A DNA stretch of 64,000 bases. Source: an uncultured Selenomonadales bacterium. Its GTDB lineage: Bacteria > Bacillota > Negativicutes > Selenomonadales > Selenomonadaceae. The position numbers and the translations under genes were made by a program. Position 1 is the first letter of the stretch. Each line of letters starts with the position of its first letter. Where the stretch lies: positions 1 to 64,000 of the forward strand of contig CAMZHX010000011.1 of assembly GCA_947307055.1 (NCBI GenBank), given 5' to 3'. The notes under the pieces are model-generated. The model was not told where the DNA came from and made no database searches. It saw nothing but the letters and a program-made list of their open reading frames with translations. Of this stretch, positions 3,870 through 55,459 are shown one piece after another.

Positions 3870-4865
3870 TTAGAAGACAGCTTCAATGGTGCCGATAATC
3901 TCGCCTCTGTGATTCTTCAAGACGGGCGGGAATTTTTTATCGAGTTCGGCGGCCTCGTCTTTGGTGAGCAAATCCAATTTCTTAAGCACAGCGATTGTCA
4001 TTGGCGTCACCGCCGCATAGTCGCCGTCCTCAATCTTGAACGTGATACCCAAATCGCCGTCCTTGACAGCTAAGCAATAAACCGCGTCCGAGCCAATTTT
4101 CGCGATAATCCTGCCGCCAGTGACTTCCGAGACAGCCAAATCGATTCTGCCCGTGCCCGAAATCACTTGCGGATATTTGCTCATAGCGTCGCGGATTTTA
4201 GTCGTGGCGTCCTCGTAGTCGCCCCAATCGCCAAGTTTCGGCGTAGACAGTCTAGCATAGGCGAGCGACATATTATAAATCGGCAGGTAGAAGACCGGCA
4301 CGCCGCAGCCGTCAATCCCAATCTCCAATTTGTCTTCAGGCATACGCGACGACATCGCAACGTGCTTGAAGATAATTTTTTGCGCCTCGTGAGTGGGTTG
4401 CGTGTAGCCTTCGTAGGGAATGCCGAGCATCATCGACAGCGCGATAATTTGCGAGTGCTTGCCGGAGCAGGGATTGTGAACCGGCAAAACTTTTTCGCTC
4501 GCCGCGATGAGTTTTTTGAATGCCTTGCCGCTCATAGGTCTGACGACGCCGCAATCTAAAACGCTTTCATCAAGTCCGAGCTTATTTAAGATTCCTCTGA
4601 CCAACGCAACGTGATTTTCTTCGCCGCTGTGACTTGAAACTAAAAGCGCGAGTTCTTCTTCGTTTATGCCGTATTTTTCGAGTCCGCCATTTTTTACGAA
4701 CGGCAACGCTTGAAAAGGTTTAGCCGCCGAACGCCAGAACATTGGCAAATGCGCATTGCCGACCGCCGCGACGACTTCCCCTTTGCAATTTACTGCCGCC
4801 ACGTCGCCGCGATGAATATTTTCGACGTGACCGGCGCGAGTGTAATGCAATACAATTTCGCTCAT
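3870..4865 (-). CDS. Asparaginase II family protein
   Basis: The 331-residue protein matches the asparaginase II family (Pfam Asparaginase_II type) from end to end. Typical features are YTRAGHVENIHRGD near the start, RSAAKPFQALP, SSHSGEENH and the CSGKHSQ block. Members hydrolyse L-asparagine to aspartate and ammonia in the cytosol, although few have been tested. The start has a strong GGAGGAAG ribosome site. It is the last gene of the leftward divIC-tilS-hpt-ftsH run, 67 bases after ftsH. Confidence 0.85.
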   Translation of the reverse strand: MSEIVLHYTRAGHVENIHRGDVAAVNCKGEVVAAVGNAHLPMFWRSAAKPFQALPFVKNGGLEKYGINEEELALLVSSHSGEENHVALVRGILNKLGLDESVLDCGVVRPMSGKAFKKLIAASEKVLPVHNPCSGKHSQIIALSMMLGIPYEGYTQPTHEAQKIIFKHVAMSSRMPEDKLEIGIDGCGVPVFYLPIYNMSLAYARLSTPKLGDWGDYEDATTKIRDAMSKYPQVISGTGRIDLAVSEVTGGRIIAKIGSDAVYCLAVKDGDLGITFKIEDGDYAAVTPMTIAVLKKLDLLTKDEAAELDKKFPPVLKNHRGEIIGTIEAVF

Positions 4866-4932
4866 GAAACTTCCTCCTAAAAAAATCGGGCGGTCAAAAT
4901 CTCTTCGACCTCCCTAAAAATTTTCGTTCTGT

Positions 4933-6831
4933 TCAAATCGGATTGGGTGTCGGCTCGACCGGCTTAACCAACTCGACGGGTTCTGGCAAGGGCGGCGGCG
5001 GTGGTGGTTCGTCTTTAGGCTTTTGCAGTGAAATTTTATCTCCACCAAAAACTATGTCCTTGAGTTCCTGCGACGTCAATGTCTCTTTGTCCATAAGGGC
5101 TTGCGCGATTTTCTCCAGCGCGTCGCGATTCTCGTTGATAATCGTGCGGCAAGCCTCGTAAGCCTCCTCCATGTACTTGTGAATTTCCTTATCGATTTCG
5201 CCGGCGACTTCCTCCGAATAATTTTTCTGCGGCTGCCCGAAGAAATATTGCTGCGCGGGGTCGCCGCCATAAGCTACGGGGCCAAGTTTATTGCTCATGC
5301 CGTATTGCATAATCATGGCGCGGACGATTCTACTTGCCTGCTGAATGTCTTGAGATGCGCCGGTCGAAATTTCGTTGAGGACGATTTCTTCAGCGACGCG
5401 CCCGCCCATAGCGACTTTCAACCTGTCTAAAAGTTCCGAGCGCGTGGCGTAACTCCTATCCTCTTTAGGCAACATCAGAGTATAGCCGCCCGCCCTGCCG
5501 CGAGGAATTATCGTGACTTTGTGGACGGGGTCGGCGTGCTTCAACATCATACCAACTAGCGCGTGCCCGCCTTCGTGATAGGCCGTCAACTTTTTTTCGT
5601 CGTCGCTCATGACTTTAGATTTTCTTTCGGGACCGGCCATAACGCGCTCGATTGATTCTTCAAGCTCAGTCATATTGATTTCGTGCTTATTCCTGCGCGC
5701 CGCCAAAAGTGCCGCCTCGTTGACGAGATTAGCCAAATCCGCGCCCGTAAAGCCCGGCGTCCGTCGCGCTAAAATATCTAAGTCGGCGTCCTTAGCAATC
5801 GGCTTGCCTTTGGTATGCACTTTCAAAATCGCGATACGCCCTGTGACGTCTGGCTTGTCGACGACGATTTGACGGTCGAAACGTCCTGGCCTCAAAAGGG
5901 CTTGGTCGAGAATGTCAGGACGATTTGTCGCGGCGATTATGATAATCCCTTCGTTCGGCGCGAAGCCGTCCATTTCGACGAGTAGTTGATTCAAAGTCTG
6001 TTCGCGTTCGTCGTGACCGCCTCCGACATTTGCTCCGCGCTGACGGCCGACCGCGTCAATCTCGTCGATAAAAATTATGCACGGGGAATTTTTCTTAGCC
6101 TGCGCGAACAAGTCACGAACTCGCGACGCGCCCACGCCTACGAACATCTCGACGAAATCCGAACCGCTTATCGAGAAGAACGCAACACCCGCCTCACCCG
6201 CGACCGCCTTAGCCAGAAGTGTTTTACCTGTGCCGGGCGGCCCGAAGAGTAAGACGCCCTTTGGGATTCTCGCGCCTAAGTCGTTGAATTTTTTCGGGTG
6301 CTTGAGGAATTCGACGACCTCTGCAAGTTCTTCCTTAGCCTCGTCGGCTCCGGCTACATCGTTGAACGTCACTTTGACTTTATCGCCGCCCATGAGTTTT
6401 GCGCGGCTTTTACCGAACGACATTACTTTTGAGCCGCCGCCCTGTGTCTGCGTTATTATGAAGTACCACGCGCCGACCAATATCGCAATCGGCAACAACG
6501 ACGAAAGGAGCGTCACCCACCACGGCGGCTCTTTCGGATTCTGCGCTGTTATTTCTACTCCTTTGGCTTCGAGTTTTCCGACTAAATTTTCGTCGCCAAT
6601 CGGCGCGTCGGGTGCTATCGTCGTGAACTCGCTGCCGTCTTTTTTCGTGACCTTAATCGAATTTTTCACCAGGATAACTTTTGTGACTTCGCCCTTGTCG
6701 ACCTGCTCCAGGAATTGTGAGTAGCTCGTTTCCTGTACGGGCTGCGGCTTTATCGAAAAGTAATCGTAGGCGGTTATCGCGATGAAAATCACTAACAAAT
6801 AAAACCCGACGTTGCGCCAGAAACTATTCAA
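4933..6831 (-). CDS. ftsH: ATP-dependent zinc metalloprotease FtsH
   Basis: FtsH is a membrane-anchored AAA+ protease that degrades misfolded membrane proteins and short-lived regulators. Residues 8-24 and about 106-126 are membrane segments flanking the small extracytoplasmic domain. Walker A is GPPGTGKT (197-204), Walker [10 protein letters not shown], the second region of homology [19 protein letters not shown], and the zinc-binding protease motif HEGGH (419-423). The length (632) is normal. The C-terminus is a proline-rich tail (six consecutive Pro, then PEP and PTP) that is longer than usual. It follows hpt by 28 bases, the tilS-hpt-ftsH order conserved in Firmicutes. Confidence 0.97.
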
Positions 6832-51696: not shown

Positions 51697-51725
51697 TCAC
51701 TTTTCCGATATTCTAATCACTTTTC
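51697..51725 (+). promoter_or_regulatory. Direct repeat, possible LytTR-regulator binding site
   Basis: TCACTTTTC occurs at 51697-51705 and again at 51717-51725, 20 bases apart, just before the ribosome site of the first kinase gene. LytTR-family regulators bind two 9-base direct repeats spaced about two helical turns apart. The locus encodes such a regulator. The position so close to the start would fit repression better than activation. Confidence 0.4.
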
Positions 51726-51734
51726 GGAGGAAAA

Positions 51735-52595
51735 ATGATATTATCAAGCCTAATCGCGTTATATCAGCTAATCGATACCTACATCCGCCTTTTAGCGTTT
51801 AAAAAAAGTGTTTCAGAAGAATTAGAGCGGCGATTATTGCTCGAATCGCTAATTTGGAGTATTGCGAGCGTATTTTTGTACACTTTTTTATTTAAAATCT
51901 TCGGAATCCAAGCCGCAACTTATAAATTTGTCATGATGCTGGGTTGGTTGCCCTACTTTTTAATATTTTTGCGGAAAATATCGGGATTTCTCAAGCATAT
52001 ATTTGTTTTAGGAATGGGAGCAATTTTTTCGCTGACTCAACATACAATCGCCACGACAATAATATTAAAACTCGATTTAAAAAGCGAATATGATATAATT
52101 TTAATGGAATCGGCTGTATATTTGCTATTATTTGCGATTTTTTTACCGATAGCCCGAAAATATTTTACAAATTTACTGCCGAGCCGCGAATTTTTCGAGT
52201 TACGACCGATAGGAATTTATATAGCAATTTTGCCGCTTTTAATTGTATCAGCGAATCTTTTTAGAATTGCCGATGATGTTTTAGTTCATTCAGACGTTGA
52301 AAGAATATCTCGAATTTATTTACCAGTGGTATTTTTCTTTTTCTATCGCTATATTTTATCGGCGGCGAAACATTTTTACGATTTACAACGATTAGAGCGA
52401 AATAAAGCACTTTTGGAAGAGAAATTGGAGCTTTTAAAGGAATATCATGCATTATCGGAAGAAAATCAGAAGAAAATATCAGTAATGCGGCATGATTTGC
52501 GGCACAGTTACAATTTAATTTACGCGATGTTGGAAAATGGCGACGTTGAAACGGCGCGAGAACATATAAGGAAGCAAAAAGAATGCTTGAAATAA
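51735..52595 (+). CDS. AgrC-like sensor kinase lacking the ATPase domain
   Basis: The 286-residue protein has about six membrane helices (up to about 210) and a coiled coil (about 215-245). It ends with the dimerisation/phosphoacceptor helix of AgrC-type kinases: MRHDLRHSYNL with the likely phospho-His 253. It stops right there (EHIRKQKECLK) and has no N box or G box, so it cannot bind ATP. The stop overlaps the start of a paralogous kinase by 13 bases, and the SD of that gene lies inside its last codons. GGAGG lies 5 bases before its own ATG. Such sensors usually detect peptides. The A/T-rich codon use differs from the housekeeping genes. Confidence 0.8.
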   Translation: MILSSLIALYQLIDTYIRLLAFKKSVSEELERRLLLESLIWSIASVFLYTFLFKIFGIQAATYKFVMMLGWLPYFLIFLRKISGFLKHIFVLGMGAIFSLTQHTIATTIILKLDLKSEYDIILMESAVYLLLFAIFLPIARKYFTNLLPSREFFELRPIGIYIAILPLLIVSANLFRIADDVLVHSDVERISRIYLPVVFFFFYRYILSAAKHFYDLQRLERNKALLEEKLELLKEYHALSEENQKKISVMRHDLRHSYNLIYAMLENGDVETAREHIRKQKECLK

Positions 52596-53905
52596 TATTG
52601 GCATTGGAAATGACATTGGCGCAAATATCGGGCGCATATTTAAGATATTTACCATTTAGCAGCGAAATATCGGAAAAACAATTATCCGCGCTGAAAAAAT
52701 GGATAATTTTATGGAGTTTTGTAGATTTCGGGCTGAATTTATTGATATTTTCGGACGGATTGAGCTATCAGACATATAAAATAGCGTTATTAGGGGGTTG
52801 GTGGCCCTATTTTTTAATCTCGGCGAAAATAATCGGGAAAATGTTTAAGCAACTATTTGCGTTTGGAATGGAAGGTTTATGGGTTTTTATGCTCCATGCG
52901 TTCGCGGGAATGGGCGTTGCATTTATACACGGGCAAATGTCGGAAGAATTTTTATCGCTACAACTGATGATATATTTGCTACTTTTTGCGGGATTATTGC
53001 GGATTGAGCAGAAATTTTTTACAAAATTGCTCCCAACAAATAAATTTTTTGAAGATAAAGCATTAAAATGGGCGATTTCGATATTACCACTCGCAATTTT
53101 CATAGGAACAATAATTCCTGTAATGGAAATTACATTTTTGCAGACGTGGACGGACAGGTTACAACGATTATTTTTTCCGATATTTTTCTTGCTGATATAT
53201 CGTTTAATGAGTATAACGACGCAACAATTTGAAGAAAAACGGCTCAAGGAGCAAAACAATTTGATTTTAGTGCGGCAAATGACTTCGTTATCGGAAAATA
53301 ATTTGTTAATAGAAAAAAATCAGCGCGAAATGACCGAATTGAGAAAAAATCTGTCAGAAAATTATTTGGAGCTAGAAAAATTGATAAACGCGGGGCAAAT
53401 ATCAGCGGCAATGGAATTTATTTCGCGGCAAGTTGAAATATTGGATTCGACGCGTATAAAAAAATTCAGCAAATTACCGTTGATAAATGCGGCAATTTCA
53501 ATATATTTTCGGCGTGCAGAGTCATTAGGAATAAAATTTTTGCATAAAATAGATTTACCAGAAGAATTATCGACTGATGAGAGCGATTTAGCGGTTTTAG
53601 TGAGCAATTTGTTGGAAAATGCAATAGAGGCAAGTTTGAAGCAAAAAAATCCCTCCGAACGAGATATTTCAATAATATTACGCAATATCAAGGGACAAAA
53701 TGTATTGGAAATAGGAAATAAATACGATTTCCCGATAAAATTGGGCGAAAATGGCTTACCTTACACGACTAAAATAGGTCACGGGCTCGGAATGAATTCA
53801 TTAGAAATTTTCGCGAAAAAGTATAATGCCTTCGTTGATTTCAGTCATGAAAACGGTTTTGTGCAATTAAATTTATATTGGAATGATTATTTATGGGCAA
53901 AATAA
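52583..53905 (+). CDS. AgrC-like sensor kinase with ATPase domain but without the phospho-His
   Basis: Paralogue of the preceding gene, 440 residues: about six membrane helices (to about 210), a coiled coil, then a GHKL ATPase domain with N box SNLLENAIEAS (341-351) and G box GHGLGMNS (399-406). In the helix where its neighbour has RHDLRH, it reads RKNLSEN (254-260), so Lys replaces the phospho-accepting His. It can presumably bind ATP but not autophosphorylate. AAGGAAG lies 10 bases before the ATG within the first kinase gene. Its 3' end overlaps the convergent regulator gene by 19 bases. Phosphorylation of the partner in a heterodimer is the obvious hypothesis. Confidence 0.82.
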   Translation: MLEIILALEMTLAQISGAYLRYLPFSSEISEKQLSALKKWIILWSFVDFGLNLLIFSDGLSYQTYKIALLGGWWPYFLISAKIIGKMFKQLFAFGMEGLWVFMLHAFAGMGVAFIHGQMSEEFLSLQLMIYLLLFAGLLRIEQKFFTKLLPTNKFFEDKALKWAISILPLAIFIGTIIPVMEITFLQTWTDRLQRLFFPIFFLLIYRLMSITTQQFEEKRLKEQNNLILVRQMTSLSENNLLIEKNQREMTELRKNLSENYLELEKLINAGQISAAMEFISRQVEILDSTRIKKFSKLPLINAAISIYFRRAESLGIKFLHKIDLPEELSTDESDLAVLVSNLLENAIEASLKQKNPSERDISIILRNIKGQNVLEIGNKYDFPIKLGENGLPYTTKIGHGLGMNSLEIFAKKYNAFVDFSHENGFVQLNLYWNDYLWAK

Positions 53906-54885
53906 CGCATGAATTTAACTTTAACTTCCTTTTTCTTGCGCTGACTAATTGGAATTGAAGTCCCGTCCATTAAAATAAAGTCGTCGGGCTCCATCGATTT
54001 TATATAGTCCATATTAACAATAATTCTGTGATAACACTCCAAAAAACGTTCGTCCGCAAGCAAAATCGGCTGAATTTCGGAATAATTATTTGCCGTGACG
54101 AATTTTTTGCCGTCGGCGAGGTAAACGCAAAGTCTGTGTCGGTAATCAATATCGATGTATAAAATATTGCGATTCGGGACAAAAATTTCATTTCCGCTGA
54201 CGTTCAAGGCAATTTCCGGCGTGTTTTTGAAGATTTTAGGGAAAATATGCTCGAAAGTTCGCGAAAAATCGTCCTCGTGATTGGAAATCGGCTTTAAAAA
54301 GTAGCCAACAGCAAAAACTCGATAGCCATTTAAGATAAAATCATCGCTGGAAGTGAGAAAAACTATATTAACGTCGTCATCACCGCGAGCACGTATGATT
54401 TGCGCCGCTTGAAGACCGTCAATTTCTTCCATGCGAATATCCAAAATCACGAGTTGAAATAAACCAGGCTTGAAAACATTCAAAAATTCATTCGTGTTGG
54501 AAAAAGTTTGAATCGTTACTTCGGAATAAATTTCGGGATAATTTTTTTGAATAAAACTGCGCAAATACAATTCGGCAGCATTTAATTCCGAAATTTCATC
54601 GTCGACAATGGCAATATTCATAGAAAAATCCTCCTGAGGCTTTATAAAAATGATTTTAACGTCGAAATTAGCAATATAATCGGCGAGTTTGCGCATATTT
54701 CCGCCGAGAATTACGACTTGATAAATTTGCGGACTAAACCAGGTCAAAAATTCATTTTTGCGTTGAAATAGTTCGATATGAATATCCGATTCGTAATTCT
54801 GAAAATTTTCGCTGATATAATAGCGCAAAAAGGCTTCGGCGGTCTCCAATTCGATTTTTTCGTCATCGACAATGGCAATATTCAT
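53887..54885 (-). CDS. LytTR response regulator with an extra degenerate receiver domain
   Basis: The 332-codon frame holds two receiver domains and one LytTR DNA-binding domain (about 230-332). Receiver 1 (1-88) begins MNIAIVDDEK, but its phospho-Asp position reads VVILGGNM (Gly 61) and the domain stops after strand four. Receiver 2 starts at Met 89 (ATG 54621) with the same MNIAIVDDE, has Asp 149 in VVILDIRM and Lys in YFLKP. CAGGAGG stands before ATG 54621, so a normal 244-residue regulator can be made from within the same frame. The first ATG has GAAGGAG, buried in a hairpin. The tail-to-tail kinase genes are the natural partners. It looks like a fused tandem duplicate. Confidence 0.85.
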   Translation of the reverse strand: MNIAIVDDEKIELETAEAFLRYYISENFQNYESDIHIELFQRKNEFLTWFSPQIYQVVILGGNMRKLADYIANFDVKIIFIKPQEDFSMNIAIVDDEISELNAAELYLRSFIQKNYPEIYSEVTIQTFSNTNEFLNVFKPGLFQLVILDIRMEEIDGLQAAQIIRARGDDDVNIVFLTSSDDFILNGYRVFAVGYFLKPISNHEDDFSRTFEHIFPKIFKNTPEIALNVSGNEIFVPNRNILYIDIDYRHRLCVYLADGKKFVTANNYSEIQPILLADERFLECYHRIIVNMDYIKSMEPDDFILMDGTSIPISQRKKKEVKVKFMRYFAHK

Positions 54886-54940: not shown

Positions 54941-54973
54941 CTTAATCAATTTTTGGGAAAAAATAATCAGTTT

Positions 54974-55459
54974 TCAGCCGATAGGCAACGTTTTAACCCA
55001 ATCCGCTAAAATATTTTTATCAGTGCGACCGCGAAAAACTTTACCTTGAATCCAAAGCGTCGAGTCAGAACAGGAAGGTTTGAGCTGCGAAAGCGTTTCT
55101 CCAAAGCCCGAACCACCCGAAGTCGCATATAAAACAATAGTTTTTCCGCTAAAATCGTAACTTTCAAGGAAAGAATTGATAATATGCGGCGCGACATACC
55201 ACCAAATTGGAAATCCAAGAAAAATCGTGTCGTAATCGGCAATTTTTGCGGATTTATCAGCGAGTTCGGGACGCGATTTAATATCCGCCATTTCAACAGA
55301 ACTGCGCGATTGCGAGTTGTTCCAGTTTAAATCTTTGCCCGTGTAAGGCGTGGCGGGCTTAATTTCGTAAGTGTCCGCATTGAGAATTTCCGCCAAATCG
55401 TTGGAAAGTTTGCGCGTAGAACCGCTTGCAGAGAAAAATGCTACCAATTTTTTGCTCAT
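54974..55459 (-). CDS. Flavodoxin
   Basis: The 161-residue protein has the flavodoxin FMN phosphate loop near the start (FFSASGSTRKL) and the second loop FLGFPIWWYVAP, the pattern of the flavodoxin-4 group. Flavodoxins carry electrons for low-potential reactions. Its ATG overlaps the stop of the small upstream gene by ATGA, and cbiT precedes both, so it is co-transcribed with them. Confidence 0.9.
   Translation of the reverse strand: MSKKLVAFFSASGSTRKLSNDLAEILNADTYEIKPATPYTGKDLNWNNSQSRSSVEMADIKSRPELADKSAKIADYDTIFLGFPIWWYVAPHIINSFLESYDFSGKTIVLYATSGGSGFGETLSQLKPSCSDSTLWIQGKVFRGRTDKNILADWVKTLPIG

Follow-up and report, generated by a model that had tools for sequence, protein, structure and literature searches.

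Sensor kinases are usually described as homodimers in which each chain carries both the phospho-accepting histidine and the ATPase domain. AgrC reportedly forms asymmetric dimers, and a complementing heterodimer made in the laboratory is said to have been described by George Cisar in 2009. Spo0B and HPt are phosphotransfer proteins. Split kinases are already known among the CheA proteins and are a precedent for the locus described here: CheA3 and CheA4 of Rhodobacter sphaeroides do not autophosphorylate singly, while their mixture does (PMC3591291), and in the PilL-N/PilL-C (Hik36/Hik43) system of Synechocystis, Hik36, Hik43 and Rre6 interact in two-hybrid analysis (PMC7656254). An engineered EnvZ whose domains were placed on separate chains is among the work cited by PMC3591291, and AgrC is described as working as a dimer (PMC6066662). 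No split kinase of the AgrC/GHKL type, either in Selenomonadaceae or elsewhere, was found in searches of the open-licence literature by title and beginning of abstract.

The locus considered here is located within a 64,000-nucleotide stretch of DNA (the window) and comprises two tandem genes, A and B, on contig C11 of genome G000 (other G numbers denote the genomes compared with it), together with a regulator operon (53887-54885, minus strand) which is convergent with A and B (Table 1). The original prediction had described two overlapping AgrC-like genes, the first retaining RHDLRH (His253) and ending before any ATPase domain, the second retaining a full GHKL ATPase domain and having lost the phospho-His, with membrane sensor halves kept in both, and this description was borne out throughout. 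Both open reading frames and their overlap are present at the coordinates in Table 1. A Pfam scan of the A protein returned no family at an E value of up to 0.1, and its AlphaFold2 model (23-sequence alignment; mean pLDDT of 90.6, with every residue at 70 or above) comprises membrane helices and a long helix (residues 196 to 267) which continues into DHp helix 1. Because the model places DHp helix 2 at residues 271 to 285 of 286, A consists of a sensor and an entire DHp hairpin, after which the protein ends. B matched HATPase_c_5 (GHKL) at 43 bits (cut-off, 22) and HATPase_c below threshold, carries Lys255 within RKNLSEN, and is modeled by AlphaFold2 (24 sequences; mean pLDDT of 81.7 and pTM of 0.51) as membrane helices, DHp helices ending at residues 269 and 289, and a CA sandwich at approximately residues 299 to 434. 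Its closest solved match, both by profile (E value of 1.8e-5) and by fold, is AgrC (6e52). Across 12 measured loci of the window's type, the two genes overlap by 13 bp at five and by 4 to 8 bp at six, and are separated by a 3-bp gap at one; this overlap suggests that they may be translationally coupled.

Table 1. Features of the A/B kinase locus and of the convergent regulator operon
Feature	Position	Strand	Remarks
Gene A, His-only subunit	51735..52595	+	286 aa; membrane sensor half and complete DHp hairpin, ATPase domain absent
Gene B, ATPase-only subunit	52583..53905	+	440 aa; sensor half, His-less DHp and intact GHKL CA domain
Overlap of A and B	52583..52595	+	13 bp
DHp region of A (residues 242-286)	52458..52592	+	Alignment to B; AlphaFold2 model of A
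His253 codon in A, predicted phospho-acceptor	52491..52493	+	First His of RHDLRH
Lys255 codon in B, phospho-His column	53345..53347	+	RKNLSEN in place of the His box
CA (ATPase) domain of B	53453..53902	+	Pfam, alignment, AlphaFold2
N box of B	53603-53623	+	SNLLENA, residues 341-347
G box of B	53777-53794	+	GHGLGM, residues 399-404
REC-LytTR response regulator	53887..54621	-	Pfam; Asp codon at 54439-54441
Truncated receiver stub	54622..54885	-	88 residues; in-frame fusion ahead of the regulator; phospho-Asp replaced by Gly (54703-54705)
Direct repeat TCACTTTT-N12-TCACTTTT, candidate LytTR regulator site (autoregulation)	51697..51724	+	Ahead of gene A
Weaker repeat copy TCAATTTT-N13-TCAGTTTT	54946..54974	+	Ahead of the stub/regulator operon; regular expression, any base at one position per half

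As in the split CheA proteins, the phospho-His and the ATPase are distributed over two proteins, an arrangement which for A and B is known from sequence and which is that of a split kinase in the CheA3/CheA4 sense. However, the histidine of CheA resides on a P1/HPt domain, whereas A and B are both membrane-bound sensors with the AgrC fold and are encoded in tandem as paralogues which each possess a DHp and whose roles are swapped between relatives; no CheA domain (P1/HPt or P5/CheW-like) was detected by Pfam in either protein, the two ATPase families being the only matches of B. With AgrC of Staphylococcus aureus, the system shares a multi-helix membrane half, a DHp, a GHKL ATPase and a LytTR regulator, B combining a GHKL CA domain with an AgrC-like DHp and A being without the CA domain. 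The difference is that AgrC holds both parts in one chain, whereas His and CA are here on separate polypeptides. Because no AgrB-family gene was detected in any of the 12 genomes carrying the pair (some incomplete, and with a profile of uncertain sensitivity, which matched 1 of 14 control genomes, below the cut-off), an autoinducing-peptide signal is not indicated. The proposed A:B complex would correspond to a natural heterodimer of a His mutant and an ATPase mutant and would thereby resemble the engineered AgrC and EnvZ heterodimers, but the latter are laboratory constructs, whereas A and B are conserved natural genes.

A search of 66 genomes of the genus with A as the query identified some relative in 35; 12 of the 66 (G000, G017, G024, G036, G061, G062, G070, G071, G072, G076, G085 and, with two loci, G086) carry the arrangement seen in the window, which makes 13 loci in all, a recurrence which indicates that the pair is more than a chance occurrence. 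Named relatives carrying A are Selenomonadaceae/Selenomonadales metagenome assemblies, several of which derive from the rumen or omasum of goat, sheep or deer. RHDLRH, including the histidine, is retained in all 13 A orthologues, each of which ends before any CA domain and within a few residues of the others, and the phospho-His column of gene 2 is occupied by K, Q, A, E or R, and never by H, in 13 of 13 readable sequences (of which G061 and G086a are cut inside the CA domain by contig ends and G086c is a piece on another contig). The pattern that would have spoken against the original prediction, a break confined to this strain with undamaged single kinases at the same place in its near relatives, was looked for and not seen, the complementary pair being kept at all 13 loci. 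For seven species pairs, dN/dS was 0.13 to 0.23 for A and 0.12 to 0.25 for B (dS exceeding 1.3 in two of the seven), values well below 1 which place both genes under selection; subunits of other lineages gave 0.08 to 0.26 (usable pairs), and four single-kinase pairs gave 0.17, 0.27, 0.585 (damaged N-terminus included) and a saturated value. Co-inheritance and selection of A and B are, therefore, both apparent, and from their adjacency and co-inheritance we infer that they are likely to form one system. This system can be lost, as A persists only as broken remnants in G064. What is conserved is a kinase-stub-regulator cassette; the flanks mostly differ between loci, and the neighbor at 54974-55459 is common to G024 and G072 only among nine other loci of the window's type compared.

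The class-level search covered 380 genomes, at least 110 of which contained relatives, and 40 regions examined among the matches listed yielded, together with the genus loci, 48 tandem pairs, which were classified by hand (Selenomonadaceae-type genomes). A complementary state, in which one partner is His-only and the other ATPase-only, was assigned to 39 of the 48: 13 of the window's type, one with the same roles (G222), 11 in which an ATPase-only gene 1 accompanies a truncated His-only gene 2, two in which it accompanies a gene 2 with a degenerate ATPase, and 12 in which its partner is a DHp-only protein of approximately 100 residues. G086b was scored as complementary via a His-less, CA-bearing gene-2 piece on another contig (G086:C155), the pieces being unjoined, and the gene-2 states of G086b and G226 were both inferred from pieces on other contigs; G025_2 and G075_2 were classed as degenerate ATPases by score (120 and 100 bits, respectively). 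The ATPase was absent from no pair as a whole and the histidine from two (G034 and G273a). Counted per protein, 42 were His-only, 42 ATPase-only, eight carried both and four neither (Fisher P of 1.6e-14, a descriptive value only, in which relatedness is ignored).

The nine non-complementary pairs comprise G289, G182, G291 and G290, in which both parts, or nearly both, occur in one partner; G224 and G226, in which gene 1 is without both activities and gene 2 either holds both, with SHEL in its His box (G224), or is cut by a contig end and was called complete from a piece elsewhere (G226s; G226); G034 (L045) and G273a (L113), in which neither gene has a canonical His; and G172, in which both genes are intact and represent a separate duplication. 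The states of G034, G273a and G224/G226 indicate that complementarity is not an absolute rule and that pairs can reach other states. The pairs of G224 and G226 are those at loci L112 and L121.

Complete ATPase-only partners in complementary pairs had CA scores of 169 to 220 bits, and the 26 single-kinase rows, each left out in turn, had scores of 171 to 241 bits; His-only partners in complementary pairs had either no CA domain or a leftover at 100 to 120 bits, the leftovers of G182 and G291 scoring 35 and 73 bits, respectively. Both parts were present in all 26 single-kinase rows, one of which, G226s, is located where a contig ends and could be a second gene. Mean DHp identity of the His-keeper versus its partner was 0.66 versus 0.58 in the window's type (10 complete pairs), a modest contrast, 0.52 versus 0.32 in the swapped type within the genus (six pairs, including G034), 0.85 versus 0.67 in the swapped type of genus g24 (five pairs) and 0.65 versus 0.43 in the DHp-only type (12 pairs). 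The CA identity of ATPase-keepers (0.69, 0.54, 0.75 and 0.66) was in the same range as that of single kinases (0.62).

The DHp-only type constitutes a third architecture, found at 12 loci of other genera, in which a short gene specifying a membrane protein of approximately 100 residues comes after the gene for an ATPase-only kinase. Read from a conserved internal start, this protein consists of one hydrophobic helix, a coiled linker and a DHp whose His box is RHDLRHHYRLL or a close variant, the ATPase domain being absent. Its gene gave dN/dS values of 0.13 and 0.16 (dS below 1) and 0.10 (dS of 2.1), a fourth pair being saturated. These partners resemble stand-alone phospho-acceptors such as Spo0B or HPt, but they differ in their single hydrophobic helix and in their position beside an ATPase-only kinase, and neither the HPt nor the SPOB family was matched in the one example scanned. 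The DHp-only partner looks like the split reduced to its minimum.

In the window's type, the His-only member is gene 1 and the ATPase-only member is gene 2, whereas other lineages show the reverse assignment, with an ATPase-only gene 1 and a His-only gene 2. Within the genus, this swapped type was found in six genomes (G025, G032, G034, G067, G075 and G084), in which gene 1 has the ATPase and is without the His; gene 2 retains the His in five of the six. Three of the second genes (G032, G067 and G084) are without the ATPase domain, and the other three (G025, G075 and G034) have a degenerate one. In G084 (L087), the ATPase-only open reading frame (4502-6292) overlaps the called gene-2 open reading frame (5787-6722) by 506 bases in another frame, which may represent either a long overlap or a lost stop.

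In a tree of the sensor plus DHp (56 rows, made without three short rows), the first genes formed one clade (86/88) and the second genes another (99/93), and in a sensor-only tree the second-gene clade was recovered at 92/85 and the first-gene clade with weak support (68/76). In the family-wide sensor tree (110 rows, excluding 15 rows with short sensor parts, mainly DHp-only proteins), the second genes again formed one clade (35 rows; 100/92), and the window's ATPase-only gene 2 was sister (100/95) to second genes which are His-only or combine His with a degenerate ATPase. The first genes, with the exception of that of G172, fell on the other side, intermixed with single kinases; they do not constitute one clade in this tree, since the swapped-type first genes of the genus join single kinases (95/87). 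With refined states, the minimum number of changes on the 110-row tree was 10 for His and five for CA. These sequences give good support to the roles having been swapped with respect to the sensor halves. Three other groupings were rejected: a single clade of His-only sensors (57 log units worse; AU P of 6e-4), a single clade of ATPase-only sensors (65 log units worse; AU P of 6e-5), and an origin of the window's pair by duplication within its lineage (AU P of 8e-6 on the sensor tree).

It is quite possible, if somewhat short of probable, that the split arose only once and that the swap was produced by an exchange of sensor and cytoplasmic halves between the tandem genes, a history which would leave function unchanged. 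In the tree of the DHp alone (68 columns, quick method), DHps without the His fall together whether they come from gene 1 or from gene 2 (SH-aLRT of 92), contrary to the sensor tree. A CA clade of the ATPase-only genes is not rejected (P of 0.09); the CA-domain tree does not resolve the deep forks, and none of the four groupings tested on it was rejected (P of 0.09, 0.33, 0.11 and 0.11). However, DHp sequences may converge, a single gene-2 DHp clade is not clearly rejected (P of 0.066 and 0.050, with G273b_1 excluded), and G291, G182 and G289 look like intermediates, with both directions represented. Either history, opposite losses or recombination, points to a need for the pair to retain one of each activity.

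LytTR sites are paired direct repeats approximately two helical turns apart. By sequence, the REC-LytTR domains of the regulator and the paired direct repeats of the locus are those of a LytTR two-component system, the sites being candidates. As a GGAGG-like stretch precedes the Met at 54621, the regulator may also be translated alone. The preceding receiver stub was noted in the window and at L031-L034, L036, L083, L084, L155 and L156, and the replacement of its phospho-Asp by Gly was seen in nine of nine aligned. Depending on the species, the stub is either joined to the regulator or encoded by a gene of its own, with dN/dS of 0.14 to 0.36 (six pairs); exceptions are an internal stop codon in G085 and a mere remnant in G076, and no stub was seen beside the two regulators of G086. 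It may act on the split kinase as an inhibitor or an adaptor. The kinase-stub-regulator cassette is separable, since the stub-regulator fusion of G070 (L155, G070:C6) is located on another contig with its own repeat.

The strict TCACTTTT repeat had one match in the window versus none in 100 shuffles, a control which covers the strict form only. A wider pattern (20- or 21-bp period) gave 31 matches in 11 of the 12 pair-bearing genomes, with none in the reversed control; eight lie before gene A (seven genomes), 11 before the stub or regulator and 12 elsewhere. Among these last 12, five are positioned no more than 50 bases from where a large divergent gene begins (G000, G061, G070, G071 and G085; L143, L145, L146, L147 and L150). 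The products of the two such genes scanned are hybrid kinases containing dCache, HisKA, HATPase and REC domains, the remaining three being judged from the sequence start; the neighbor across the repeat from this gene in four genomes we take to be SecD-like. The repeat also precedes genes for large proteins which bear a TFDLQRF stretch near their start, at L144 (G000), with Peptidase_M26_N and GLUG matches, and at L149 (G076), with GLUG just under the cut-off. Given these repeats before hybrid kinases and large proteins, it is plausible that the output of the regulator is tied to surface proteins and a signaling cascade.

We consider it likely that A and B work as a split kinase with the AgrC fold that is obligately heteromeric: His253 of A would receive its phosphate from B, and the LytTR regulator from A. 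The comparisons thereby support the heterodimer put forward in the original prediction. The sequences themselves establish how the two proteins are built and that this is conserved, that both genes are under selection, and that complementary loss has recurred with the roles swapped. The steps of this pathway, namely heterodimerization, trans-phosphorylation, phosphotransfer and repeat binding, we infer as follows. A and B would dimerize via their sensor halves and DHp helices, and the CA domain of B would bind ATP and phosphorylate His253 of A in trans; the phosphate would then pass from A to the Asp of the adjacent LytTR regulator, which would bind the 20/21-bp direct repeats before the kinase operon, the regulator operon and a few other genes. 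A productive A:B dimer would need trans geometry, and by analogy with the AgrC dimer, A:B would be the productive state, with His253 as the target of the CA domain of B. Because A:A is without an ATPase and B:B without the His, only the heteromer would signal, and its output would depend on both sensor halves.

That A instead serves as a phospho-acceptor or phosphatase subunit for another kinase, B being a separate ATP-dependent modulator and no phosphotransfer occurring between the two, appears unlikely. The window's genome does hold one single kinase of the same family (G000:C42), which combines both parts and is located beside a regulator, and this could in principle serve A. However, such a kinase was seen in just 2 of the 12 pair-bearing genomes, and the copy of G071, which sits alongside the split pair, is frame-broken, as is its regulator (L090, G071:C39); furthermore, A adjoins B, with overlapping genes at 11 of the 12 measured loci, and the complementarity of His and ATPase within pairs would be left unexplained. 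Receptors that are truncated and have no enzymatic domain often act as inhibitors, a generality which would accommodate A as a decoy or dominant-negative protein titrating B or the regulator, with no phosphate passing through the pair; this is distinctly improbable, as the His and the following Asp are kept in all 13 A proteins, the DHp is better conserved than any other region of A, and the phospho-acceptor position of B is without His. Decay of both genes into pseudogenes, which the original prediction had offered as its alternative and which the absence from each of a part required by a stand-alone kinase and the remnants in G064 might recall, is very unlikely given the conserved reading frames with their near-identical end point, the retention of the pair at 13 loci, the low dN/dS and the complementary loss, with swapped roles, in other lineages, and decay limited to one strain is ruled out by the orthologous pairs and dN/dS.

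Beyond the heteromeric kinase proposed for A and B, it is tentatively suggested, and may well be the case, that a tandem-duplicated AgrC-type receptor of Selenomonadaceae became an obligate two-receptor heterodimer, the roles being evolutionarily reversible on the same paralogues and one lineage possessing a one-helix, DHp-only His subunit, so that the pair would gate two inputs by AND or ratio logic. For annotation, the locus carries a warning that "truncated" and "His-less" kinases may be working partners. Many members of one bacterial family keep complementary half-kinases, mostly both with full membrane sensors, and that opposite paralogues carry the roles in different species amounts to a natural complementation experiment favoring trans-phosphorylation in AgrC-type kinases. 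The question of what is gained from a receptor needing two sensor chains, whether two-signal logic, ratio sensing or switch-like behavior, the last of which is described as having been modeled for split kinases (PMC3591291), is thereby made testable.
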